From: Thermoplasmatales archaeon SW_10_69_26
GTDB lineage: Archaea; Thermoplasmatota; SW-10-69-26
Direction of reading: 5' to 3'
Assembly: GCA_003009755.1 (NCBI GenBank)
Contig: PXUB01000027.1
Span: 1 to 15,686 of the forward strand
DNA: 15,686 nt
Below are positions 4,518 through 15,622 of this stretch, piece by piece. The notes beneath the pieces are model-generated. The model was not told where the DNA came from. It made no database searches and was given only the letters and a program-made list of their open reading frames with translations. A program made the position numbers and the translations under genes. Positions within the stretch are counted from its first letter, which is position 1. Each line of letters opens with the position of its first letter.

Positions 4518-4562
4518 CTTCTCGACCTGGTCTACACTGTGTGACACGACCAGGTCGAGAAG
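4518..4562 (-). repeat. 15-bp hairpin next to tRNA-derived copy A'
   Basis: CTTCTCGACCTGGTC at 4518-4532 pairs perfectly with 4548-4562, with a 15-nt loop. On the minus strand it follows the tRNA 3'-end copy in A' just as similar hairpins follow the real tRNA-Ala and tRNA-Val genes. This suggests the tRNA end and its trailer hairpin were duplicated together. Confidence 0.65.
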
Positions 4563-4672
4563 TGGACGCGCCGTGATTCTCGTCCGAACCTCGCGGTCGC
4601 TCGGCTCGGGCGGCTCGGAGGTCCGACCAGCCGTCCGCCGGACCTACTCGTGAACACGGTTCAAATCACGGC
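4561..4672. repeat. 112-bp tRNA-Ala-derived repeat, copy A'
   Basis: This is the second copy of the unit at 4273-4384. Its left end keeps 18 nt of tRNA-Ala 3' sequence (AGTGGACGCGCCGTGATT) and its right end carries the inverted GTTCAAATCACGGC. One substitution breaks the central 9-bp hairpin that is perfect in copy A. The two copies and the intact tRNA lie in a row within 530 bp. Confidence 0.75.
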
Positions 4673-4682
4673 CTTGATGCTG

Positions 4683-4729
4683 CTTCTCGACCTTCCTGTT
4701 GCTACAAGCGAGAAGGTAAGGTCGAGAAG
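4683..4729 (-). terminator. Hairpin directly abutting the 3' end of tRNA-Ala
   Basis: On the minus strand CTTCTCGACCTT begins at the base after the discriminator and pairs perfectly (12 bp) with 4683-4694. The loop is 23 nt and partly self-complementary. It may serve as a terminator or as a 3'-processing signal. tRNA-Val has the same arrangement. Confidence 0.6.
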
Positions 4730-4803
4730 TGGACGCGCCGTGATTTGAACACGGGGCCTCCTCCATGCCAAGGAGGCGATCTTCCGAGCTGATCTACGCG
4801 CCC
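4730..4803 (-). tRNA. tRNA-Ala (GGC)
   Basis: This is a full cloverleaf read on the minus strand: acceptor GGGCGCG pairs with CGCGTCC including the G3-U70 wobble that identifies alanine tRNA, the D-arm is GATC...GATC, the anticodon arm CCTCC-TTGGCAT-GGAGG gives anticodon GGC, and the T-arm is CCGTG-TTCAAAT-CACGG. The discriminator is A and CCA is not encoded. There is no A/T-rich TATA box in the 25-35 nt upstream, unlike the other two tRNA genes. The anticodon arm is identical to that of tRNA-Val(GAC) except for the middle anticodon base. Confidence 0.95.
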
Positions 4804-5930: not shown

Positions 5931-5949
5931 GAGGGATCGGAGATCCCTC
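5931..5949. repeat. GATC hairpin (solitary)
   Basis: GAGGGATC-GGA-GATCCCTC is a perfect 8-bp stem with a 3-nt loop. It has the same GGATC-NNN-GATCC core as four other sites in the window (6079-6097, 12747-12767, 12849-12865, 15462-15482). No long-stem partner directly adjoins it. The rest of 5777-6078 holds short hairpins (such as CAGCCG-TC-CGGCTG near 6053) and no gene. Confidence 0.6.
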
Positions 5950-6078: not shown

Positions 6079-6133
6079 GTCGGATCGGAGATCCGGCGGC
6101 TTCCGAGACCGGGCGGGTCAGCCGGTCTCGGAA
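6079..6133 (-). repeat. Composite two-hairpin element, copy 1
   Basis: TTCCGAGACCGG (6101-6112) pairs perfectly over 12 bp with 6122-6133, with a 9-nt loop. A 3-nt spacer separates it from a GATC hairpin (GGATC core, loop GGA, 6079-6097, 8 pairs with one wobble). Read on the minus strand the order is long hairpin, spacer, GATC hairpin, then a pyrimidine tract (CTCTTCTTCCTTAC). The stretch GGTCTCGGA-GCCG-CCGGATC is nearly the same as in the copy at 15417-15482. Confidence 0.65.
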
Positions 6134-6188
6134 CGCACACGGGTCCTCTCTCGGTTGACGTGAGGCCACAGCGCTCGGACCCGTGGCG

Positions 6189-6231
6189 CTTCTCGACGGC
6201 CGGGCTGCTATCGGGGTCGGCCGTCGAGAAG
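6189..6231 (-). terminator. Hairpin directly abutting the 3' end of tRNA-Val
   Basis: On the minus strand CTTCTCGACGGCCG starts immediately after the discriminator base and pairs perfectly over 14 bp with 6189-6202, with a 15-nt loop. Its first nine bases match the hairpin after tRNA-Ala although the rest of the stem differs, and the change is compensated on the other arm. Confidence 0.65.
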
Positions 6232-6305
6232 TGGGCCCGACCTGATTCGAACAGGTGACCTCCTCCATGTCAAGGAGGTGTCATAACCAACTAGACTACG
6301 GGCCC
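6232..6305 (-). tRNA. tRNA-Val (GAC)
   Basis: This is a complete cloverleaf on the minus strand: acceptor GGGCCCG/CGGGCCC (7 perfect pairs), D-arm GTC...GAC with GTTGG in the loop, anticodon arm CCTCC-TTGACAT-GGAGG giving anticodon GAC, and T-arm ACCTG-TTCGAAT-CAGGT. The discriminator is A and no CCA is encoded. A TATA box lies about 30 nt upstream. Confidence 0.96.
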
Positions 6306-6330
6306 GGCAGCCCCCGCACGCCAGCCACAG

Positions 6331-6351
6331 GATAAAAGCGTTGCCCGGCAA
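6331..6351 (-). promoter_or_regulatory. Promoter of tRNA-Val: TATA box with palindromic upstream box
   Basis: On the minus strand CTTTTATC (6331-6338) is a good TATA box, centred about 30 nt before the tRNA 5' end. Two bases upstream lies the 11-bp palindrome TTGCC-G-GGCAA (6341-6351). A nearly identical arrangement occurs in front of the P5CDH gene. Confidence 0.6.
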
Positions 6352-6364
6352 GGGGACGCAAGGC

Positions 6365-7903
6365 TCACTCCTCCTCGCGGACGAGCTCCTGCGTGCTGCC
6401 CGTGGCGCGCAACAGCTCCTGCAGGGCCTGATGGTAGGCGTCCCCGCGGGCCTCGACCAGCTCCTCGACGTAGGGAACGAGGTGGCTGGCGGTGTCCTTC
6501 GTGCGGCCATCGACCGTCCAGGTCCGCGAGGGCAGCTCCAAGGCTTCGACCAGGGCCAATCCCACGGCGCGCTTGTCGGGGTCCGGGGCCGAGGTTAGAA
6601 GCTGTTGGGCGCTGTCCCTCCCCTCGCCGACGAGGCGGCGCACGGTCTCGTGCGCCAGATCCACGGGCGAGGGAACCTCCTCGTAGGTCGGCAGCTCCTC
6701 CGCGACGCGCTGGCGGGCCCGCTCCTTGCGGATGCCGTCGAGCAGTTGCTCGATCTCGCCCGCGTCGGCATAGGGATCGTACATCTGGCGCCCCTCCTCC
6801 CCGATGACGGCGACGAGGACGTCCTCGCCGAGCGGCTCCCAGATCTGCTCGAGCAGCTCGACGGGCGTGCCGCGGTCGAGGACGACCGGCCGTTGCAGGC
6901 GTTCGAGGGCGGCTTCCACGAGCGAGCGCTGGGGCTCGGGGGGATCGATCTCGTCGACGAACCGGTCGAAGGGCGGCTTGTGGACCTGCTTGCCGTGGAT
7001 CACGAGCGGCTCGTCGCGCTGTCGCAGCTCGTAGTAGCGGGCCCGGCGAGCCTCCTCCACCAGCCCGTCGTCGTCCTGCTCGCCGTTCACGTAGGCCTGC
7101 AGGACCGAGCGGGGCAGGTGGACGTCCGCCTCGGGCGCCGACCCGCCGCTGGGATCGCGCAACCGGGGCAGGTGCACGTCGACGTCCACGATGTCCAGCG
7201 GCTGTGGGGTGACCATGACCTGCTGCATGACGCCGAGCAGGTTGCCGGGCGAGCACTCCGGGCACACGCGGATCCGCAGCCCCGCCGAGGGCCAGCCGAT
7301 CTCGATGTAGGTGCCGTCGGTGAACTCGTCGTGGATGTGCTCGCACCGGGCCAAGTTCGGCGAGGCTCGCCCCACCGGCAGCCCTTCGACGAGCATGTCG
7401 ACCGTCTCCTCGGGCGGTTCGCCGTCGTGGGCACACACCAGCCCCTCGCGGGTCGCGTACACGACCTCGCCCTCGTCGATGAAGGGCACCGCTTTGAGCA
7501 GGCGCAGGCCACGTTCGAGGTGGTGTTGCATGCCGACGTGAGCGAGCGCGGGCGCGCTGCCCCAGGGAGCGATCGGGACCTCGCCCTCGTGGGTTCGAAC
7601 GTTCTGGAAGAACTCCAACGCGTCCGAGCCCTGCTCCGCGATGCGGAGGGCGACGGCGTAGGCCCGGCCCAGCTTGTTGCCCCAGTTGCTCCAGCGCTCG
7701 AGCTTGTCCTCGTCGCCGATCATGTCGTGGCGTCGGTCGACCGCTTTCCGGGCCCGCTTGAAGTAGCACAACAGCGGGCAGCTGCCCTTGCACTGCGGGA
7801 CAGCTCGGTCCGGGTTGTCGCGGACGGCTCGCACGCTGTCGATGATCTCGTCGGCGATCTTGTCGCTGCCGCTGCGCACGGAGCCGTGCCGCTTGCGCGC
7901 CAT
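6365..7903 (-). CDS. Conserved-looking cytoplasmic protein of unknown function with Cys clusters
   Basis: This is a 512-residue soluble acidic protein that I do not recognise. Residues 38-46 carry C-x3-C-x3-C (CKGSCPLLC) followed by a basic helix (YFKRARKAVDRR). A second set of possible metal ligands comprises C157, C187 with nearby H189 and H191, and C214-PE-C217, which would suit a zinc-binding or treble-clef-like site. The segment GYDP-like folds are absent and no ATPase, nuclease or methyltransferase motif is visible. The C-terminal 180 residues are helical and Glu-rich. The ATG at 7903 lies about 25 nt downstream of a TATA-like element, which suggests its own leaderless transcript rather than read-through from L37e (stop at 7954). 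It could bind nucleic acid or an Fe-S cluster, but that is a guess. Confidence 0.7.
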   Translation of the reverse strand: MARKRHGSVRSGSDKIADEIIDSVRAVRDNPDRAVPQCKGSCPLLCYFKRARKAVDRRHDMIGDEDKLERWSNWGNKLGRAYAVALRIAEQGSDALEFFQNVRTHEGEVPIAPWGSAPALAHVGMQHHLERGLRLLKAVPFIDEGEVVYATREGLVCAHDGEPPEETVDMLVEGLPVGRASPNLARCEHIHDEFTDGTYIEIGWPSAGLRIRVCPECSPGNLLGVMQQVMVTPQPLDIVDVDVHLPRLRDPSGGSAPEADVHLPRSVLQAYVNGEQDDDGLVEEARRARYYELRQRDEPLVIHGKQVHKPPFDRFVDEIDPPEPQRSLVEAALERLQRPVVLDRGTPVELLEQIWEPLGEDVLVAVIGEEGRQMYDPYADAGEIEQLLDGIRKERARQRVAEELPTYEEVPSPVDLAHETVRRLVGEGRDSAQQLLTSAPDPDKRAVGLALVEALELPSRTWTVDGRTKDTASHLVPYVEELVEARGDAYHQALQELLRATGSTQELVREEE

Positions 7904-7925
7904 CGGCTACGCCACGAGGCTGATG

Positions 7926-7934
7926 TTACAAAAG
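7926..7934 (-). promoter_or_regulatory. TATA-like element before the 512-aa gene
   Basis: On the minus strand TTTTGTAAC lies 22-31 nt before the ATG at 7903, the spacing seen at other leaderless starts in the window. It sits between the stop of L37e and the start of the next gene. Confidence 0.4.
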
Positions 7935-7953
7935 CCCGGGTCCGGAGACCGTC

Positions 7954-8112
7954 TCACTTGACCCAGTTGTAGTCGCGTTGCTTGGCGGAGTCGCCGAAGC
8001 CGCACGACGCACAGCGCTTCTTGCGCGTGTGGAAACTGTGGTTGCCGCAGCGTCGACAGCGGACGTGCGTCTTCTTGTTCTCTTGGCCGCTGCTCGGCGT
8101 TCCCTTGCTCAT
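7954..8112 (-). CDS. rpl37e: Large ribosomal subunit protein eL37 (L37e)
   Basis: This is a 52-residue basic protein beginning [20 protein letters not shown]. It has the family's N-terminal GTPS motif and four zinc ligands, C19-x2-C22 and C34-x2-C37 (RCRRCG...RCASCG), and ends in the RDYNWVK tail. The family is usually 50-60 residues in archaea, so this is full length. It binds 23S rRNA near the exit side of the large subunit. The gene starts 12 nt after the stop of the LSm gene, and this LSm-L37e pair is conserved across many archaea, so co-transcription is likely. Confidence 0.96.
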
Positions 8113-8124
8113 TCGTACTCACCC

Positions 8125-8373
8125 TCAGGGGGAAACGTACACGATGCTGTCGCCTCGGATCACGACCAGCTCTTGGTCGTTGACCACCTCGTCCTCCGTG
8201 CCCGCGTTCAACACCTCTTCGGCGTCCTGGAGCACGATGTTGAGGTGCGGGTGGTCGTACCCGTGCAGGGTGCCCCGGTACTCGCGCCGGCCCCGGAGGT
8301 GTACGATGACACGCTCGTCTAGGGCGGCGTGCAGCACGTCGAGGGGGCGGTTGTCCTGCTCCTCGTCGTTCAT
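8125..8373 (-). CDS. LSm (Sm-like) archaeal RNA-binding protein
   Basis: This is an 82-residue protein. Residues 10-45 ([20 protein letters not shown], then [20 protein letters not shown]) form Sm motif 1 with its G-x-L-x-G-(Y/F)-D-x-x-x-N core. Residues 68-80 ([13 protein letters not shown]) form Sm motif 2 with the conserved IRGD. Such proteins form hexa- or heptameric rings that bind U-rich RNA, including tRNA-derived and small RNAs. The start [10 protein letters not shown] at 8373 was chosen because family members begin just before RPLD; the frame is open further upstream to 8547, but that extension is Arg/Pro-rich and unlike the family. It is followed 12 nt later by L37e. Confidence 0.95.
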
Positions 8374-8534
8374 AGGGCGACGGGCGGGTCGACGGGCGGA
8401 CCGTACATGAACGTTGTGGGACGGTCGGCGGCCGTCGGCTCGACCGCGCATCGCACCGTCCACCGGCTCGTCACGGTTTCTGGGCCCGACGTTGAAGTGA
8501 ACGAGGCGGAGAGGTGGGCGGCCGGTGATGACCT

Positions 8535-8672
8535 CTGACGAAGACATCGACGCTCGTTCCGACGCGGTGGCTGCTGGCCGCTCTCCTGCTGACCGTCATC
8601 GCCGTCGCCAGCGGCGCGGCAGCGCAAACCTGTACCCCCCAGGGGCGGCTCCCCGTGTACTTCTGCATCTAG
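8535..8672 (+). CDS. Putative 45-aa secreted peptide with a non-ATG (CTG) start
   Basis: Read from CTG at 8535 this gives [20 protein letters not shown] and [17 protein letters not shown], ending LPVYFCI. It is a textbook signal peptide (basic and polar N-region, 15-residue hydrophobic core, cleavage after AAA or AAAQ) followed by a tiny mature part with two Cys. No ATG or GTG lies in frame, because TGA at 8529-8531 closes the frame upstream. However, GGTGAT (8524-8529), complementary to the usual archaeal 16S rRNA end, sits 5 nt before the CTG. A strong hairpin and T-rich tract follow the stop on this strand. It may instead be the frameshifted remnant of a gene starting at the ATG at 8528. 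I do not recognise a family. Confidence 0.45.
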
Positions 8673-8697
8673 GTTGAGCTGACAGCCGACAGAGGAC

Positions 8698-8738
8698 GCG
8701 GGCGCCCTCGCGGGCGCCCGCCCTTTCTTCCTTCTTCT
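8698..8738 (+). terminator. Intrinsic-type terminator downstream of the small secreted peptide
   Basis: GCGGGCGCCC-TCGC-GGGCGCCCGC is a perfect 10-bp stem with a 4-nt loop (8698-8721). It is followed on the + strand by a pyrimidine tract containing CCTTTCTTCCTTCTTCT. The tract lies only on the + side, so it points to + transcription ending here, 26 nt after the peptide's stop codon and just before the end of the convergent P5CDH gene. Confidence 0.7.
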
Positions 8739-10329
8739 ACTCCTCGTCGGGCTGTTTGACGACGGTGCGGCTCTGCTCCTTCATGAACTGCGGCAGGTAC
8801 CAGTAGCCGCCGGCGAACTTGCCGGTCGTGCCGGAGAACTTCCAGCCACCGAAGGGCTGGGCTTGCACGAGGGCGCCGGTCGTGGCCGAGATGTGCCGGT
8901 TGACGTACGTCATGCCGGACTCGATCTCGTCGAACCAGCGCTCGATCTCCTCCTCGTTCTCGCTGAACAGGCCCGCGCAAAGCGCGTAGTCGCTATCGTT
9001 GGCCTTCTCGATGCCTTCGTCCAGGCTCGAGATCGGATGGATCGTGACGAAGGGGAGGAAGTGCTCCTCGCGCGCCAGCTCGTGGTCGTGGGGGATGTCC
9101 CGCACGACGGTCGGGGCCACGAAGCGGCCCTTGCCGAGCTCGCCCTCGTCGAGCACCTCGCCGCCGACGAGAACCTCGCCGTCCTCCTCGGCCGTCTCGA
9201 CGATCGCCTGGTAGTGCTCGAGGCTGTCCTCGTCGATGACGGGGCTGATCATCGTCTCCCGTTCCTCGGGCGGGCCCACGGGCGTGTTCTCCTCGGTCTC
9301 CTCGACGAGGCGCTCGGTGAACTCATCCACGAGCGACTCGTCGACGTAGACGCGCGCCGTGGCCGAGCACTTCTGACCGCTGAAGCCGAAGGCGCCGTTC
9401 TTGACGCCGGGCACGGCCTTGTCGAGGTCGGCCTCGTCGGTGACGATGACGCTGTTCTTGCCGCCCAGCTCCGCGATGACGGGGCCGCGCTTGCCCTGCT
9501 CGAGGAAGGTCTCCTCGGCGTGGGTGCCGACCGTGCGGGAGCCGGTGAACACGACGCCGTCGACGTCCTCGTGCTCGACGATCGGCTGCCCGGTCTCGCG
9601 ACCGCTACCGGTGACGACGTTGCCTACCCCCTCGGGCAGGCCGGCTTCGCGGTAGATCTCGAAGATCTCGTGCGCGATCAGCGGCGTCGCGCTGGCGGGC
9701 TTGAGCACGGCAGCGTTGCCCGTGATGAGCGCGCCGGTGCTCATGCCGGCGAAGATGGCGCCGGGGAAGTTGAACGGCGAGATGACGCCGAACACGCCGT
9801 AGGGCCGCAGCATGTTCGTCGTGTGCTGACCGGGCGGGACCTTGCCGGTGTCGTACACGTAGCCCTTGTGGCGCCGGAGCTCGGCGCTGTAGAAGTCGAG
9901 GAAGTCGATCGCCTCGTCGATGTCGGCCATCGCCTCCTCGCGGTTCTTGCCGTTCTCGAGCGTCATAAGGGCCGCCAAGTCGAACTTCCGGTCGCGCATC
10001 TCGTCGGCGGCGTCCTCGAAGATCTCGGCCCGCTCGTCGTAGGGCGTGTGCTCCCAGTCGGACTGGGCCTCCTTGGCGGCCTCGACGGCCTCTTCGACGT
10101 GCTCGGGCGTGGCGCTGGCGAACGTGCCGATCTCACGCTCGAGATCGCCGGGCGAGGTGACGGTGAAGGTCTCGTCGGTGTCGACCTCCTCGCCCCCGAT
10201 GATCAGGCCCTTCTCGACGGGAAGCTTGGCTTTCCAGGACTCGACGGCGTCCTCGTAGCTTTGGTGGAACTTCTCCAAGGCTCCACGCTGCTTGTAGTGA
10301 TGGACGGTCAGCTCGTTCTCGAACGTCAT
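8737..10329 (-). CDS. Aldehyde dehydrogenase, P5C (glutamate-gamma-semialdehyde) dehydrogenase type
   Basis: This is a 530-residue enzyme of the ALDH superfamily. The N-terminal region (FENELTVHHY... then LPVEKGLIIGGEEVDTDETF) matches the stand-alone 1-pyrroline-5-carboxylate dehydrogenase group, which oxidises glutamate-gamma-semialdehyde to glutamate with NAD(P)+. Visible catalytic features are PFNFP with N187, FTGS at 261-264 in the cofactor site, the general base E287 in AELGGK, and the nucleophile C321 in GFSGQKCSATAR. The C-terminal part contains FVAPTVV and QPFGGWKFSGT. The length fits the roughly 520-540 of this group. No proline dehydrogenase is adjacent, so the substrate rests on similarity only. 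It is divergently transcribed from an ALDH7-type gene, which suggests joint regulation of amino-acid degradation. A TATA-like CCTTTTGG lies about 45 nt before the ATG. Confidence 0.85.
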   Translation of the reverse strand: MTFENELTVHHYKQRGALEKFHQSYEDAVESWKAKLPVEKGLIIGGEEVDTDETFTVTSPGDLEREIGTFASATPEHVEEAVEAAKEAQSDWEHTPYDERAEIFEDAADEMRDRKFDLAALMTLENGKNREEAMADIDEAIDFLDFYSAELRRHKGYVYDTGKVPPGQHTTNMLRPYGVFGVISPFNFPGAIFAGMSTGALITGNAAVLKPASATPLIAHEIFEIYREAGLPEGVGNVVTGSGRETGQPIVEHEDVDGVVFTGSRTVGTHAEETFLEQGKRGPVIAELGGKNSVIVTDEADLDKAVPGVKNGAFGFSGQKCSATARVYVDESLVDEFTERLVEETEENTPVGPPEERETMISPVIDEDSLEHYQAIVETAEEDGEVLVGGEVLDEGELGKGRFVAPTVVRDIPHDHELAREEHFLPFVTIHPISSLDEGIEKANDSDYALCAGLFSENEEEIERWFDEIESGMTYVNRHISATTGALVQAQPFGGWKFSGTTGKFAGGYWYLPQFMKEQSRTVVKQPDEE

Positions 10330-10482
10330 CGATCAGGCACCCTTAGCCCGCGATAGGCCCCTCCACCCAAAAGGGTTGCCGGGCAGGCACCCTCACGCCA
10401 GCCCGACACCTGCCTGCCGCTGGGCTGACCGCGCCCCAGGGTTTTTGCCCATCGCGACGCCTGGCTTGGGGAGGTCGGGGCC
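10330..10482. promoter_or_regulatory. Shared divergent promoter region of the two aldehyde dehydrogenase genes
   Basis: This 153-bp region separates the two start codons. Towards P5CDH it contains CCTTTTGG (minus strand, about 10367-10375) preceded by the near-palindrome CTGCC-C-GGCAA. Towards ALDH7 it contains GGTTTTTGCCC at about 10440-10450, some 35 nt before the ATG. Between them, GGCAGGCA (10382-10389) has its exact complement at 10411-10418, and CAGCCC (10398-10403) is complemented at 10422-10427. These are candidate sites for a common regulator. Confidence 0.5.
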
Positions 10483-12018
10483 ATGCAGGAACGATACGCA
10501 ACCATCCTCGAGGACGCAGGGCTGGATCCCTCCACGCCCTTCGACGGCGCGACCGACGGCGAACAGTGGTACGCCTCGGGCGACGAGCTCGAGGTCACGA
10601 CGCCGATCGACGGGGACACGATCGGCACCGTCCGCCAGGCGACCGCCGAGGACTACGAGCGCACCGTGCAGCGCGCGCAAGACGTCTTCGAGGAGTGGGC
10701 CAGCGCGCCCGCGCCCGAACGCGGCGAGGTCGTGCGCGACCTCGGTGAGGCTCTTCGAGACAACAAGGCCGAGCTCGGTCGCTTGATCACGCTCGAGATG
10801 GGCAAGATCGTCGAGGAAGGTGAAGGCGAGGTGCAGGAGGCCATCGACATCGCCGACTTCGCCGTCGGCCTCTCCCGCCAGCTGTACGGGAAGACGATGG
10901 CGACCGAGCGACCCGACCACCGCATGTACGAGCAGTGGAAGCCGCTGGGCCCGATCGGCATCATCACGGCGTTCAACTTCCCGTGCGCCGTCTGGTCCTG
11001 GAACAGCTGCATCGCGGCCGTCTGCGGCGACACGATGATCTGGAAGCCCTCCTCGGCCACGCCGTTGACCGCGATCGCGGTCTCCAAGCTGGCCAACGAG
11101 GTGTTCACCGACCACGGCTACCCCGGCGTGATGAACCTCACCATCGGGCCCGGATCGACCGTGGGCGAGAAGATCGCCAACGACCGGCGCCTCCCGCTGG
11201 TGTCCGCGACCGGCTCCACCGAGATGGGCTACCACGTCGGCGAGACCGTCGCCTCACGCATGGGCAGCTCGATCCTCGAACTCGGCGGCAACAACGGCGT
11301 GATCGTCACCGACAGCGCCGACCTCGACCTCGCCGAGCGCGCCATCACCTTCGGCGCCGTCGGCACCGCCGGTCAACGCTGCACCTCGATCCGCCGCGTG
11401 TTCGCCCACGAGGACGTCGCCGACGACCTCGTCGAGCGCCTCGTCTCGACCTACGAGCAGGTCGACATCGGCGACCCGCTCGACGAGGACACGCTCATGG
11501 GCCCCCTCATCGACGAGGACCCCGTGGACAGCATGATGGAGGCGATCACGCACCTGGAGAAGCAGGGCGGCGAGGTGCTCACCGGTGGCGAGCGCCTGCC
11601 CGAGCTGGGCCCCAACTACTGCCAGCCGACGATCGCCGAGGTCGAGCACGACGTCCCAATCGTGAAGGAGGAGACCTTCGCGCCACTGCTGTACGTCATC
11701 CGCTACGAGGACCTCGAGGAAGCGATCGAGTGGCACAACGACGTGCCCCAGGGCCTCTCGAGCGCGATCTTCACCGAGAACGTCAAGGAAGCTGAACGGT
11801 TCCTGGGGCCCCACGGCTCGGATTGCGGCATCGCCAACGTCAACATCGGCACCTCCGGCGCCGAGATCGGTGGCGCCTTCGGCGGCGAGAAGGACACCGG
11901 CGGCGGCCGCGAAGCTGGCTCCGACAGCTGGAAGCAGTACATGTGTCGCCAGACGGTGACGATCAACTACAGCGACGAGATGCCGCTCAGCCAGGGGATC
12001 GACTTCTCGGTGGAGTAG
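10483..12018 (+). CDS. Aldehyde dehydrogenase of the ALDH7 family (alpha-aminoadipate semialdehyde dehydrogenase type)
   Basis: This is a 511-residue protein with the hallmarks of the ALDH7/antiquitin family: AFNFPCAVWSWN (N165), the base E266 in LELGGNNGVIV, the nucleophile C300 in GTAGQRCTSIRR, and the family-specific C-terminus GGAFGGEKDTGGGREAGSDS followed by WKQYMCRQTVTINYS. Family members oxidise alpha-aminoadipate semialdehyde (lysine degradation) and related semialdehydes or betaine aldehyde, using NAD+, in the cytoplasm. Length and motifs are complete, with no truncation. The ATG at 10483 is followed by MQERYATILEDAGL, typical for the family. Its neighbour on the other strand is a P5CDH-type enzyme with a related semialdehyde substrate. 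A 14-bp hairpin begins at the stop codon. The specific substrate is inferred from the family. Confidence 0.9.
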   Translation: MQERYATILEDAGLDPSTPFDGATDGEQWYASGDELEVTTPIDGDTIGTVRQATAEDYERTVQRAQDVFEEWASAPAPERGEVVRDLGEALRDNKAELGRLITLEMGKIVEEGEGEVQEAIDIADFAVGLSRQLYGKTMATERPDHRMYEQWKPLGPIGIITAFNFPCAVWSWNSCIAAVCGDTMIWKPSSATPLTAIAVSKLANEVFTDHGYPGVMNLTIGPGSTVGEKIANDRRLPLVSATGSTEMGYHVGETVASRMGSSILELGGNNGVIVTDSADLDLAERAITFGAVGTAGQRCTSIRRVFAHEDVADDLVERLVSTYEQVDIGDPLDEDTLMGPLIDEDPVDSMMEAITHLEKQGGEVLTGGERLPELGPNYCQPTIAEVEHDVPIVKEETFAPLLYVIRYEDLEEAIEWHNDVPQGLSSAIFTENVKEAERFLGPHGSDCGIANVNIGTSGAEIGGAFGGEKDTGGGREAGSDSWKQYMCRQTVTINYSDEMPLSQGIDFSVE

Positions 12019-12228
12019 CCGAGAGACGCCTCGGGGGACCTCGTGAACGCACCACGGGCGTCTCTCGGCTGAGTACGCCCGACCACGGCCACCACCGAGG
12101 GCGTACGAATCGCGGGGGTCGCTGCCGCCCGGCCGACCCTCGCGAAAGACCGAGGCCCGCGCGAACACGCCTCGGTCGGATCCGAGCATCGACGGCCCGA
12201 GGACCCCGCGCGGGTCCGATGATCGGAC
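12017..12228. repeat. Run of five to six consecutive hairpins after the ALDH7 gene
   Basis: In order: AGCCGAGAGACGCC (12017-12030) pairs perfectly over 14 bp with 12057-12070; GTACGCCC (12073-12080) with 12099-12106; a 12-bp stem with one wobble, 12110-12121 with 12134-12145; GACCGAGG (12148-12155) with 12170-12177; GGACCC (12201-12206) with 12212-12217, overlapping an alternative, GTCCGAT-G-ATCGGAC (12214-12228). The first stem overlaps the stop codon. No gene is visible. The first hairpin may terminate the ALDH7 transcript; the reason for so many is unclear. Confidence 0.7.
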
Positions 12229-12320
12229 TATAGGAACGCCTGGGGTACCCCACGCTCGCAGCGGGACCCATCGACGGCTGCACGTGAGAGCTTGTGAGGC
12301 CACGCGTGCCAACGGTGGGT

Positions 12321-12569
12321 ATGGCACGAACCCGCGCGAAGCGATCCAGCGCCCGACCGACGGCCCGCGGCGCCTGCCCGAACTGCGGCGAACTCGTCCC
12401 CCGCTTCCAGCACACATCCGACGGTCGCGCAGCCGAGGTGCTGGCCTGCGAAGACTGCGGCCGGTTCGCCTACACCTCCGAGGGCGCCACCCTGCCCCTC
12501 GCCGTGCCCAAGACCACGCCGGAGGGCGACCACCCCGCACCGGAGACCAACCAGCTCACGCGCCGATGA
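12321..12569 (+). CDS. Small zinc-ribbon protein
   Basis: This is an 82-residue protein. It has a basic N-terminus (MARTRAKRSSARPTARG), then a zinc ribbon with ligands C19-x2-C22 (CPNC) and C43-x2-C46 (CEDC), and a polar tail. Two CPxCG-like knuckles spaced about 20 residues apart are typical of the small zinc-finger proteins common in halophilic archaea, often tied to nucleic-acid binding or regulation. I cannot name the family. The ATG at 12321 was preferred over 12294 because GGTGGG lies just upstream and the extra nine residues look non-protein-like. The gene stands alone between two hairpin-rich regions. A C/T tract (TCTCCTTCCTTTCTTCTCCC, about 12684-12703) lies downstream and may end the transcript. 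Confidence 0.65.
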   Translation: MARTRAKRSSARPTARGACPNCGELVPRFQHTSDGRAAEVLACEDCGRFAYTSEGATLPLAVPKTTPEGDHPAPETNQLTRR

Positions 12570-12746
12570 CACGCCTGCCCGGCGTCGATCGCCGTCGCTG
12601 AGACGCACTCCTCCCCCACGACGATCCCCGGCGATCGGCGCCGTCTAGCCCCAGGCGAGAGCCCCGCGGGCCTCACCGTCTGCTCTCCTTCCTTTCTTCT
12701 CCCATCTCGACCCGACGGAACAGAGCCTGGTGCTTGTTGGACGGGG

Positions 12747-12791
12747 GCACGGATCGCGGATCCGTGCTCTCGGCAAGCTTACAGGCTTGCC
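12747..12791 (-). repeat. Composite two-hairpin element, copy 3
   Basis: GCACGGATC-GCG-GATCCGTGC (12747-12767) is a perfect 9-bp GATC hairpin. After a 4-nt spacer comes GGCAAGC (12772-12778) paired with GCTTGCC (12785-12791). Read on the minus strand the order is again long hairpin, spacer, GATC hairpin. It lies between the convergent zinc-ribbon and rpsB genes. Confidence 0.6.
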
Positions 12792-12795
12792 TCGG

Positions 12796-12865
12796 CTGGA
12801 GCGTCGAACCTGCACGGTCCCGCCAGGCAAGCGACGCTCCAGATACGACCGGATCAGAGATCCGG
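12796..12865 (+). repeat. Composite two-hairpin element, copy 4
   Basis: CTGGAGCGTCG (12796-12806) pairs perfectly over 11 bp with 12832-12842. A 6-nt spacer follows, then CCGGATC-AGA-GATCCGG (12849-12865). It is in opposite orientation to copy 3, which ends 4 nt before it, so the two form a back-to-back pair. It ends 16 nt before the stop codon of rpsB. Confidence 0.65.
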
Positions 12866-12881
12866 CCTCTCTCGACCTCGC

Positions 12882-13532
12882 TTACAGCGAGGCCTCGAAG
12901 TCCTCGACCTCGGGATCGAAGTCCTCGCGAGTGTCGATGTTCCCCCACTCGCGGGCGAGCTCGCGGCAGAGGATGTAGTACACGAGCGCCAGGGATCGGC
13001 GACCTTTGTTGTTCGTCGGGATGCAGAGGTCGACGTTGCGGAGCTCGTTGTTGGTGTCGCACAGGGCGACGACCGGGATGCCGATGTTGAGACCCTCGCG
13101 GAGCGCTTGCGCGTCACCGACGGGATCGTTGAGGACGATGACCTCGGGCTCGAAGAAAGTGCGAGTCTCCGGGTTCGTCATCATGCCCGGCATGAAGCGG
13201 CCCGGGATGGACTCGATGCCGAGCTCGTCCTCCATGACGCGGATCGGCTTCTGCCCGTACTGGCGGGCGCTCACGAACACGACGTCTTCGGGATCGTAGT
13301 TCGAGAGGAAGCGAGCCGCGGTGCGGATGCGCTCGTCGGTCTTGGCGACGTCGAGGACGAACAGACCGTCGTTCCGCACGCGGAAGATGAAATCCTCCAT
13401 GGCGGCGTTCTTCTGTTGGGTGCCGATATGGACGCCGCTGGAGAGGTACTGGTCTTCGGGGACCAGCATGTCGGCCCGGTCGCCCTCGTCGTCTGCGTTC
13501 GTGTCTTCGGTCTCGGTTGCTGCTTCGGGCAC
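12882..13532 (-). CDS. rpsB: Small ribosomal subunit protein uS2
   Basis: This is a 216-residue protein with the archaeal S2 pattern: LVPEDQYLSSGVHIGTQQKN near the N-terminus, FIFRVRNDGLFVLDVAKTDE, VSARQYGQKP, PGRFMPGMMTNP and the conserved IPVVALCDTNNELRNVDLCI, then PTNNKGRRSLALVYY. The N-terminal 25 residues are an acidic extension (EDTNADDEGDRAD), as seen in halophile-type ribosomal proteins. The start is GTG at 13530-13532, one base after the stop of enolase, so the two are translationally coupled. A terminal hairpin (CCTCGCT-TAC-AGCGAGG) overlaps the stop codon, and two composite hairpin elements follow. Confidence 0.97.
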   Translation of the reverse strand: MPEAATETEDTNADDEGDRADMLVPEDQYLSSGVHIGTQQKNAAMEDFIFRVRNDGLFVLDVAKTDERIRTAARFLSNYDPEDVVFVSARQYGQKPIRVMEDELGIESIPGRFMPGMMTNPETRTFFEPEVIVLNDPVGDAQALREGLNIGIPVVALCDTNNELRNVDLCIPTNNKGRRSLALVYYILCRELAREWGNIDTREDFDPEVEDFEASL

Positions 13533-13533
13533 G

Positions 13534-14742
13534 TCAGGACTCTCCGATTCGCTCTTCGATACGGATCAGCTCGTTGAGCTTGGCGATCCGTTCGCCACCC
13601 ACGGCACCCGTCTTGATGGCGTGACAGCCGAGCGCGACGGCAAGGTGTGCGATCGTCGCGTCGGGGGTCTCACCGCTCCGGTGGCTCATCACCGTCGCGA
13701 GCCCGTGGCGTTGCGCCAGGCGGACCGTTCTCACGGTCCGAGTGAGGGTGCCTATCTGGTTCGGTTTGATAAGGATTGCGTTGGCCGCCCCCTGTTCGAT
13801 GCCGCGGCGGAGGCGATCCTCGTTCGTGGTGAACAGGTCGTCGCCGACCACGAGGACGTCGTCGCCCACGCGGTCGGTGAACGCGGCGAACGCGTCGAAG
13901 TCCCCCTCGTGGAAGGGGTCCTCGACGCTGGTGATGGGGTAGCGGTCGACGAGGTCCACGAGGAACTCGATCTGCTCCTCGGTGGTCCGCGTCTGGTCGG
14001 TGTAGTTGTAGGCCTTGCCGTCCCACAGCTCGCTGGCGGCGACGTCGAGGGCGATCGCCATGTCGATGCCCTCGTCGCGGCCGATGAGCTGGCAGGCCTC
14101 CTCGGTGATCTCCAGGGCTTCGTCGCTGGAGACGGGGGCCACCCAGGCGCCCTCGTCGCCTTTGGCGATCGTCTCGCCCGGGCGGCGGTCGCTGAGGATG
14201 CGAGAGATCTCGCGGTGCGCTCGGGCTTGCGCGAACACGGTGCGCGAGGGGCGGCGGTCCTGGGGAACCACCATGAACTCCTGGATGTCGGTGCCGCCGA
14301 TCGCGTGCTCGCCGCCGCCGATCACGTTGCCGAACGGGACGGGCAGTTGGTCGGCGAGGGCGCCACCCAGGTGGCGGAACAGTTCGCGGCCCTCCTCGCT
14401 GGCGGCCGCTTTCGCGCAGGCGAGGCTCGTCGCCACCGTGACGTTGCCGCCGATCTGGTCGAAGGTCGGCGTGCCGTCGGCCTCCTCGATCCGGGCGTCG
14501 ATGTCCTCTTGGTCGCGGACGTCGGCGCCCTCGAGCACGGGCAGCAGCCGCGAGCGGGCCTGTCGGATGCCCTCGTCGACGCTGCCGTTCGGGAACGCGG
14601 TGACCTCGTGCTCGCCGGTGCTGGCACCGGACGGCGCAGCGGCGGTGCCGAACCCGCTGGGGGTCCAGACGTCGCACTCGACGGTCGGATTGCCACGGCT
14701 GTCGAGGATCTTGCGCCACTGGATGGCGACGATCTCGGTCAC
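13534..14742 (-). CDS. eno: Enolase (phosphopyruvate hydratase)
   Basis: This is a 402-residue glycolytic enzyme that interconverts 2-phosphoglycerate and phosphoenolpyruvate. Visible landmarks are the substrate loop APSGASTGEHE, GGGEHAIGGTDIQEF, GDEGAW, the Mg-binding acids in ALDVAASELWD, SVEDPFHEGD and VVGDDLF, the catalytic Lys in ILIKPNQIGT, SHRSGET and the C-terminal IKTGAVGGERIAKLNELIRI. Length is slightly below the roughly 410-430 common for enolases; no motif is missing. It starts with GTG at 14740-14742, 4 nt after the rpoK stop, and precedes rpsB by one base. The order rpoK-eno-rpsB is a conserved archaeal arrangement. Confidence 0.97.
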   Translation of the reverse strand: MTEIVAIQWRKILDSRGNPTVECDVWTPSGFGTAAAPSGASTGEHEVTAFPNGSVDEGIRQARSRLLPVLEGADVRDQEDIDARIEEADGTPTFDQIGGNVTVATSLACAKAAASEEGRELFRHLGGALADQLPVPFGNVIGGGEHAIGGTDIQEFMVVPQDRRPSRTVFAQARAHREISRILSDRRPGETIAKGDEGAWVAPVSSDEALEITEEACQLIGRDEGIDMAIALDVAASELWDGKAYNYTDQTRTTEEQIEFLVDLVDRYPITSVEDPFHEGDFDAFAAFTDRVGDDVLVVGDDLFTTNEDRLRRGIEQGAANAILIKPNQIGTLTRTVRTVRLAQRHGLATVMSHRSGETPDATIAHLAVALGCHAIKTGAVGGERIAKLNELIRIEERIGES

Positions 14743-14746
14743 GGCC

Positions 14747-14980
14747 TCACCGGCGGCGTTTGTCCTCGGTCGTGCCGGACTCGGCGCGGAGCACCGTGAT
14801 CGGGATCGTGCCGGCCTCGAACTCCTTCTCGGCCACCTTGATCGGATCGAGCGCTTCCTCGGGCTCGACCGGGACGAGGATCGGCGCGCCGCTGGAGATC
14901 TGCAGCGATCGCGCTCCGATGATCCGGGCCCGCTCGAAGCGGTTCACCTGTTGGGCGGAGCTGGAGGCCGTGGACGGCAT
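14747..14980 (-). CDS. rpoK: DNA-directed RNA polymerase subunit Rpo6 (RpoK)
   Basis: This is a 77-residue protein. The core NRFERARIIGARSLQISSGA followed by PILVPVEPEEALDPIKVAEK and EFEAGTIPITV matches Rpo6/RpoK, the archaeal counterpart of eukaryotic Rpb6 and bacterial omega, which clamps the largest subunit and helps assembly. The ATG at 14980 (MPSTASSS) is preferred over the upstream frame at 14998; a TATA-like TTTTCGTATG (minus strand) lies about 25 nt before it, which would make the transcript nearly leaderless. In many archaea rpoN, S9, L13 and L18e precede rpoK; none is present here. Confidence 0.95.
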   Translation of the reverse strand: MPSTASSSAQQVNRFERARIIGARSLQISSGAPILVPVEPEEALDPIKVAEKEFEAGTIPITVLRAESGTTEDKRRR

Positions 14981-15037
14981 CGACGAGACTAAGCACATCC
15001 CATACGAAAACCTTGGGGGCGGGGGCCCGGTCGTCCC

Positions 15038-15214
15038 TCAGAACCGGTTGACGTCGCCCTCGCCGCCACCCTCGACCGTCGACCCGCTGGAGCAGGCGAC
15101 GCAAACCTGGGGGTTACGATCGTCGGAATGCTCCTTGCACAACGACTTCCCGCACATCTGGCACGTGCGGGAAGCGGCCTGACCGCAGTAGGAGCAGGTG
15201 CCGAGGGTGGACAT
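15038..15214 (-). CDS. Cross-brace-type zinc-finger microprotein
   Basis: This is a 58-residue protein with eight likely zinc ligands in order: C7-x2-C10, C18-x2-C21, C26-x2-H29 and C38-x2-C41 (CSYC, CQMC, CKEH, CVAC). The spacing resembles B-box or HIT-type fingers that hold two zinc ions. Similar small proteins are widespread in euryarchaea without a firm function; protein-protein or RNA contacts are plausible. The ATG at 15214 begins the clean domain (MSTLGTCSYC); the open frame upstream is Arg/Pro-rich and lacks family character. It lies 57 nt before rpoK on the same strand, in the position usually held by ribosomal protein genes, and downstream of tRNA-Leu. Confidence 0.75.
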   Translation of the reverse strand: MSTLGTCSYCGQAASRTCQMCGKSLCKEHSDDRNPQVCVACSSGSTVEGGGEGDVNRF

Positions 15215-15416
15215 CGACGAGGACAGGTCCGGTCCCGGTTGATGAGGGTTGGGACGTAGGCCGCCGACGGCGGGAGAGGGGGCGAAGGTTCGAGCGAGGG
15301 AGACGGGGGAAGCCAGCGGTCGGCGGGAGCGGCAGGACGGGGCCGGGCTCACCGCGTGCCGAGACCGACCGTGGACGCGGGGGACCGTCGAGAAGTGCGG
15401 ATGCGCTGTCGCGTAT
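15215..15416. other. Intergenic stretch with a 17-bp direct repeat and a partial tRNA-Leu end copy
   Basis: No gene is supported. CGAGACCGACCGTGGAC occurs at 15360-15376 and again at 15417-15433. GAGAAGTGCGGA at 15390-15401 repeats the 3' end and trailer of tRNA-Leu (15532-15543) in the same orientation. Confidence 0.55.
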
Positions 15417-15482
15417 CGAGACCGACCGTGGACACGGTGGGCGAGGTCGGTCTCGGATGCCGGCCGGATCGAAGATCCGGCC
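15417..15482 (+). repeat. Composite two-hairpin element, copy 2
   Basis: CGAGACCGACC (15417-15427) pairs perfectly over 11 bp with 15445-15455, with a 17-nt loop. A 6-nt spacer leads to GGCCGGATC-GAA-GATCCGGCC (15462-15482), a perfect 9-bp stem. The second arm plus spacer plus core reads almost the same as copy 1 on the minus strand at 6079-6133. It lies 3' of tRNA-Leu, in antisense orientation to it. Confidence 0.7.
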
Positions 15483-15537
15483 TCATCCTGCCCTCCGCAC
15501 TCATCGGTGACTGTGGCAGTCGGGGACTGTGGAGAAG

Positions 15538-15622
15538 TGCGGAGGGCAGGATTCGAACCTGCGAACCCCTACGGGAGCGGGTCTTGAGTCCGCCGCAGTT
15601 GGCCAGGCTATGCTACCTCCGC
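15538..15622 (-). tRNA. tRNA-Leu (CAA)
   Basis: This is an 85-nt class II tRNA on the minus strand: acceptor GCGGAGG/CCTCCGC, loop CTCAAGA giving anticodon CAA, a long variable arm (CCC-GTA-GGG) and T-arm GCAGG-TTCGAAT-CCTGC. The discriminator is A and no CCA is encoded. The anticodon stem GCGGA/CCCGC has an A-C mismatch at the pair next to the loop. The trailer begins CTTCTC, like the other tRNAs here, but lacks their long perfect hairpin. A good TATA box lies upstream. In Haloarcula a tRNA-Leu gene heads the L18e-L13-S9-rpoN-rpoK-eno-rpsB cluster, so its position here fits an ancestral arrangement. Confidence 0.93.

Follow-up and report, generated by a model that had tools for sequence, protein, structure and literature searches.

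Chained hairpin arrays at gene 3' ends, centred on tRNA genes, in a Thermoplasmatota genome

The hairpin arrays reported here resemble several described systems. Like mitochondrial double-hairpin elements, GC clusters and hairpin repeats, in which tandem insertion can yield double hairpins, they consist of short, GC-rich, adjacent, intergenic hairpins (PMC2800124). With REP/BIME/REPIN palindromes, which go with a RAYT transposase, they share a high copy number and intergenic positions 3' of genes in both orientations (PMC3116915), and with integron attC sites, including those of archaeal integrons, a location at gene 3' ends and a conserved fold of variable sequence (PMC9668308). Perfect inverted copies and re-perfected stems are likewise features of template-switch (quasipalindrome) mutations (PMC8794818, PMC3820800). 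Template switching in replication makes perfect hairpins in one event and repairs stems with multi-base compensatory changes (PMC8794818), and quasi-palindrome extension in yeast has been linked to highly transcribed DNA (PMC3820800). An open-access literature search found no description of the array layout itself.

The window (the whole stretch of 15,686 nt that was analyzed) belongs to a single metagenome-assembled genome, that of a salt-lake archaeon of the Thermoplasmatota (G000; 2.8 Mb, 95% complete), from which an unbiased sample of 416 kb and targeted stretches were studied; GC content is 69% in the sampled part, and gene calls in such GC-rich DNA are heuristic. Ribosomal protein S2 of the window places it in Candidatus Thermoplasmatota, with Thermoplasmata archaeon CSSed11_322R1 as the closest named record (78% identical). 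Positions 1-273, at the contig start, are a repeat matching many other genome sites, and the assembly probably broke there.

A sequence-only reading of the window had proposed that a composite structured element with covarying stems is dispersed at the 3' ends of genes, and this is borne out. The arrays have a regular order: a long hairpin (X), GA, a short hairpin (Y), GAA(T), the next X, GA and the next Y. X stems are usually 12 bp and reach 19 bp, while Y has the consensus G-N-M-C-G-R-N-N-C, with loops of 3-29 nt. The 416-kb sample contains 62 pairs of adjacent perfect hairpins (both stems ≥8 bp, gap 0-8), compared to 6-13 in Markov-3 controls, a 5-10-fold excess. Flanks were not selected in this count, and GA makes up 32 of the 38 2-nt linkers between adjacent hairpins, with gaps of 3-4 nt being mostly GAA, GAAT or GGAT. 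The covariance-model search of the genome and relatives proposed in that reading, run with Y and its 12-nt flanks (E-values are rough), was strongly positive, with at least ~90 Y copies in G000, a lower bound given that 150 of 5,166 first-look candidates were scored, and ~40 matches at E <0.05 in the 416-kb sample. X was ignored in the choice of hits; an X of at least 11/12 bp lies just upstream of 58% of them (0.4% when shuffled) and directly downstream of 34% (0.1% when shuffled). The model gave no matches in 399 kb (22 contigs) of related archaea, and two exact pattern matches in viral contigs are not members by the model. A k-turn reading of the GA..GA linkers was dropped, as there is no outer helix to close them.

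The sequence-only reading had defined the element by a GGATC-NNN-GATCC core. These hairpins are real, genome-wide and far above chance: five occur in the window (5934, 6082, 12751, 12851 and 15466), where dinucleotide shuffles lead to an expectation of 0.05 and none of 200 shuffles reaches five, and 50 occur in G000, against ~3 expected from base composition by our own estimate. The few of the 50 that lie inside predicted genes look like chance. As a definition, the GATC core was discarded, since this triloop form is one variant of Y; non-GATC Y hairpins, among them TACGAACG, TACGAGGC and GCCCGAGCG, have the same linkers and context.

There are three arrays in the window: 12017-12178 (plus strand, newly recognized), 12739-12895 (minus strand, after the S2 gene) and 15417-15552 (minus strand, after tRNA-Leu). 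Their members and related features are as follows.

12017-12070, plus: X1 hairpin, 14-bp stem and 26-nt loop, starting within the stop codon of the aldehyde-dehydrogenase-like gene 10483-12018
12073-12106, plus: Y hairpin GTACGCCC-18 nt-GGGCGTAC, GA before and GAAT after; model hit 12061-12118, E 3.7e-8 with filters off
12110-12145, plus: X2 hairpin TCGCGGGGGTCG..CGACCCTCGCGA, one G-T pair
12148-12177, plus: second Y hairpin CCGAGGC..GCCTCGG, then GGATCCGAGCATCG; model hit 12136-12189, E 1.8e-4
12874-12894, minus: X1 hairpin GGCCTCGC TGTAA GCGAGGTC, containing the ribosomal protein S2 stop codon
12847-12867, minus: Y hairpin GGCCGGATC TCT GATCCGGTC, GATC variant with one G-T pair; model hit 12835-12879, E 9.6e-7
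12796-12842, minus: X2 hairpin CTGGAGCGTCG..CGACGCTCCAG, loop including ACCGTGC
12772-12791, minus: X3 hairpin GGCAAGC CTGTAA GCTTGCC, then GA
12747-12767, minus: Y hairpin GCACGGATC CGC GATCCGTGC, GATC variant; model hit 12739-12779, E 4.1e-6
15537-15622, minus: tRNA-Leu (caa), host gene of the array
15485-15552, minus: X1 hairpin made of the mature tRNA-Leu 3' end (arm 15536-15552) and a perfect 17-nt inverted copy (arm 15485-15501)
15462-15482, minus: Y hairpin GGCCGGATC TTC GATCCGGCC, GA before; model hit 15450-15484, E 2.9e-4
15417-15455, minus: X2 hairpin CGAGACCGACC..GGTCGGTCTCG
4659-4672, minus: inverted copy of the T-arm of tRNA-Ala (gene 4729-4803), arms 4659-4672 and 4737-4750, with a nested hairpin at 4683-4729
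6081-6133, strand not assigned: doubtful degenerate copy, a GATC hairpin (6081-6095) and a 12-bp hairpin (6101-6133) without GA/GAAT linkers

Of the four sites originally listed, those within the arrays at 12739-12895 and 15417-15552 are confirmed. The remaining one, 6079-6133, is doubtful: both hairpins are present, but the conserved linkers are absent and E is 0.19 with the unfiltered covariance model. Two members had been missed, 12061-12118 and 12136-12189 on the plus strand, directly after the gene ending at 12018. Two members that had been assigned to the plus strand are reassigned, as 12739-12779, 12835-12879 and 15450-15484 are all minus when read in one sense. The solitary GATC hairpin at 5931-5949 is not an array member (E 2 for 5934-5946, covariance model). 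In the tRNA-Leu array, 15353-15440 is a 31-nt tandem duplication with a spacing of 57.

The most telling feature, on which the sequence-only reading was silent, is that 3' ends of tRNA and protein genes recur as inverted copies. The focal point of the arrays is tRNA genes: in G000, a sense-strand Y lies within 200 nt downstream of the tRNA at 12 of 30 tRNA loci, compared to an antisense Y within 300 nt at one of 30. Within 150 nt downstream, 15 of 39 tRNAs have their own 3' end repeated as a perfect inverted copy (≥10 bp), and ~60% of tRNAs have none. Copies of at least 12 bp follow 11 of 39 tRNAs, against 15 of 1482 after permutation of the trailers between tRNAs; the perfect inverted copies of nearby sequence that template switching produces are therefore above chance at tRNA ends. 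Some loci show intermediates in which direct (T) and inverted (T') copies alternate. At tRNA-Arg (L147/L044) and tRNA-Leu (L029) successive copies of the tRNA end in the array are direct, inverted and direct (T-T'-T), with later copies diverging, and simple direct-inverted-direct forms occur at tRNA-Val, tRNA-Gln and a second tRNA-Arg (L047/L229).

The CGAATC linker resembles the tRNA T-loop. The Y-to-X junction, G-N-N-C-G-A-A-T-C plus ~12 bp, would correspond to tRNA positions 53-61 with the 12-nt 3' strand of the T-stem and acceptor next to them. In the window and arrays, tRNAs alone match Rfam at the gathering score, with no more than chance-level matches at E up to 10; because the Rfam tRNA model matches nothing in the arrays beyond the genuine tRNAs, the resemblance of most Y-X junctions to a T-loop depends on a short motif. 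Many tRNA genes of G000, including those at 4729-4803, 6231-6305 and 15537-15622 of the window, have C-TTCTC, a common tRNA trailer signal, directly 3', and several of these trailers then form the hairpin CTTCTCGAC..GTCGAGAAG (window 4683-4729, 6189-6231 and 4518-4562).

At several protein genes, X pairs the final codons of the gene itself with an inverted copy that lies beyond the stop codon, with GA-Y immediately next (stems of 19 bp in L051, 18 bp in L187, 17 bp in L153, and 15 bp in L158 and L032). In the unbiased sample, inverted copies of at least 13 bp occur at 2 of 291 protein-gene ends and in 2 of 875 gene interiors (one N run set aside). Long stems are thus no commoner at gene ends than inside genes, and the weight of these cases therefore lies in the adjoining GA-Y rather than in their number.

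Two other genera of the class have arrays that look homologous. G003 (tRNA-Gln L193, also L197 and L199) and G006 (L190 and the gene end L201) have the same order with different sequences and CGCA loops, and at L201 and L193 a direct repeat of the gene end follows Y. In G002, 5 of 13 tRNAs have an inverted copy of their own 3' end downstream (2 of 156 when permuted); in G001, a 75% complete genome of the same family and a different genus, none of 11 has one.

Stem changes in the arrays are paired. X2 stems show 30 two-sided and 5 one-sided changes (99% paired), counts that come partly from copies picked for good stems, and neighboring units at L029 share loop and linkers but have different, fully compensated stems; both patterns are what copying of one arm from the other would be expected to leave. 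The paired changes seen in the initial reading are confirmed, whereas its conclusion that structure is under selection is not supported, as template-switch copying leaves the same footprint (PMC8794818).

The reading we favor, which we judge to stand at about even chances, is that fold-back arrays were seeded at the 3' ends of tRNA and other genes by template-switch copying and then spread. Arrays would be chains of alternating T and T' copies of a gene 3' end, mostly that of a tRNA, with X formed by pairing of a T with the T' that follows it, and Y by pairing of the end of a T' with the beginning of the T after it. Their origin could be template switching, or DNA synthesis primed by a hairpin (snap-back), at the 3' ends of genes, to which stalled forks or R-loops at heavily transcribed tRNA genes may contribute. 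This process would also re-copy one arm from the other, leaving stems perfect while their sequence drifts, and finished units may spread by recombination to other gene ends and into the MITE-like element described below. Any benefit to the cell, such as 3'-end stabilization or insulation, would be secondary. Since the genomes compared hold no polymorphic or ancestral 'empty' site, the copying event is one that we infer; template-switch copying is favored because of the absence of Y1 transposase and reverse transcriptase, the two-sided stem changes and published template switching. Neither the Y1 (HUH) transposase (PF01797, controls positive) nor reverse transcriptase (PF00078) has a match in G000, G001, G003 or G006; the former result speaks against REP/BIME with RAYT and against IS200/IS605-derived PATE, and a retroelement origin (retron, DGR or group II intron) was rejected on the latter. 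More tentatively, the arrays may represent a class of self-templating DNA element, in which an arriving unit copies the resident gene's 3' end inverted and grows by direct and inverted copying in alternation, without a dedicated transposase. If true, such a unit would incorporate the end of each tRNA or protein gene into its own hairpin.

It is also possible, if doubtful, that the arrays are a non-autonomous mobile hairpin repeat comparable to double-hairpin elements, yeast mitochondrial GC clusters or REP/BIME, trans-mobilized by an unknown enzyme, that inserts near gene 3' ends, with tRNAs as a target preference. The patchy distribution of arrays and the recurrence of modules such as TCGCGAGCATCG at many loci would fit such a repeat, as would its positions: of the 30 non-coding GATC copies flanked by two called genes, 13 are in convergent, 16 in co-directional and one in divergent regions, though divergent regions are 31% of intergenic DNA (regions ≥100 bp). 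Arrays thus lie 3' of genes and avoid divergent promoters. Some copies are also inside a MITE-like element. However, the four genomes searched have no Y1 transposase, no common end sequence or target duplication was found for the arrays themselves, and mobility leaves unexplained why X1 copies the local gene end.

The MITE-like element (L021:1867-2167, L024, L029, L046, L049 and L052 of G000; ~270-670 bp) has inverted ends ACTGCCGG, CTAG/CTAA flanks, a likely TA duplication and a variable, hairpin-filled interior. It is often inserted exactly at a TAG stop codon, which is kept, and several assembly contigs end inside it. As the source of all copies it was rejected, as this TIR element (ACTGCCGG ends at CTAG) has only some of the GATC copies.

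We consider it unlikely that the arrays work as a 3'-end RNA element, be it a terminator, an RNase barrier or a processing signal, whose structure is maintained by selection. Their position 3' of genes, sense orientation after tRNAs and strong covariation agree with such a role, and hairpins of at least 8 bp occur at 55 of 260 transcription-unit ends and at none of 59 operon-internal ends. Yet the arrays are absent from most transcription-unit ends and most tRNAs, no T-run follows them, and tRNA folding should be hindered when 9-18 nt at the 3' end of the mature tRNA pair with the downstream copy; the deficit of one-sided changes also suggests copying over RNA-level selection. Hairpins of at least 10 bp are found at ~8% of transcription-unit ends, T-runs at 6 of 260, and TTTTT together with such a hairpin at none. 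The arrays are therefore not a general terminator, and the simple terminator suggested by the sequence-only reading is not supported.

That the arrays are tyrosine-integrase attachment sites at tRNA 3' ends, the unit being a minimal integrated cassette, is very improbable: they do contain direct repeats of tRNA 3' ends, and two of the three integrase-like genes of G000 adjoin arrays, but ordinary att duplication yields direct rather than inverted copies, G003 has arrays and no PF00589 match, and arrays also follow protein genes of unrelated sequence. Tyrosine recombinases (PF00589) are few overall; the two genes beside arrays and tRNA genes are at C2:33474-33929, which is split into two frames, and C1:122312-122803 of G000.

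Fold-back copying as favored here would provide a route for tRNA ends to seed dispersed repeats in archaea. Selected RNA structure is usually proved by covarying stems, yet in this genome, with about a hundred copies whose stems covary nearly without exception, the setting of inverted tRNA and gene ends points to DNA copying as the cause; the long-standing question of template switching versus selection in making and maintaining hairpins becomes testable in one organism.

By the tests applied, the arrays are not of the Rfam, Y1-transposase, reverse-transcriptase, attC or T-tract terminator type. They differ from REP/BIME/REPIN sequences in having no Y1 transposase, stems whose sequence is not conserved, and a relation to the local gene end. 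No attC R'/R'' core boxes (GTTRRRY/RYYYAAC) were seen at hairpin ends when X arms were inspected by eye (the arms mostly begin with T/C and mostly end with A before GA), and, unlike attC sites, the arrays chain several hairpins, also follow tRNAs and occur in G003, which has no PF00589 match. As in double-hairpin elements, perfect hairpins are adjacent at many intergenic sites; unlike the mitochondrial elements, however, the arrays are archaeal and chained, have fixed GA/GAAT linkers, and include long hairpins that copy the local gene 3' end, and it is their stem sequence that varies, whereas sponge mitochondrial elements conserve stems and vary loops (PMC2800124). Known template-switch mutations, finally, are single events, whereas the arrays are chained, recur at many genes of one genome and have conserved linkers.
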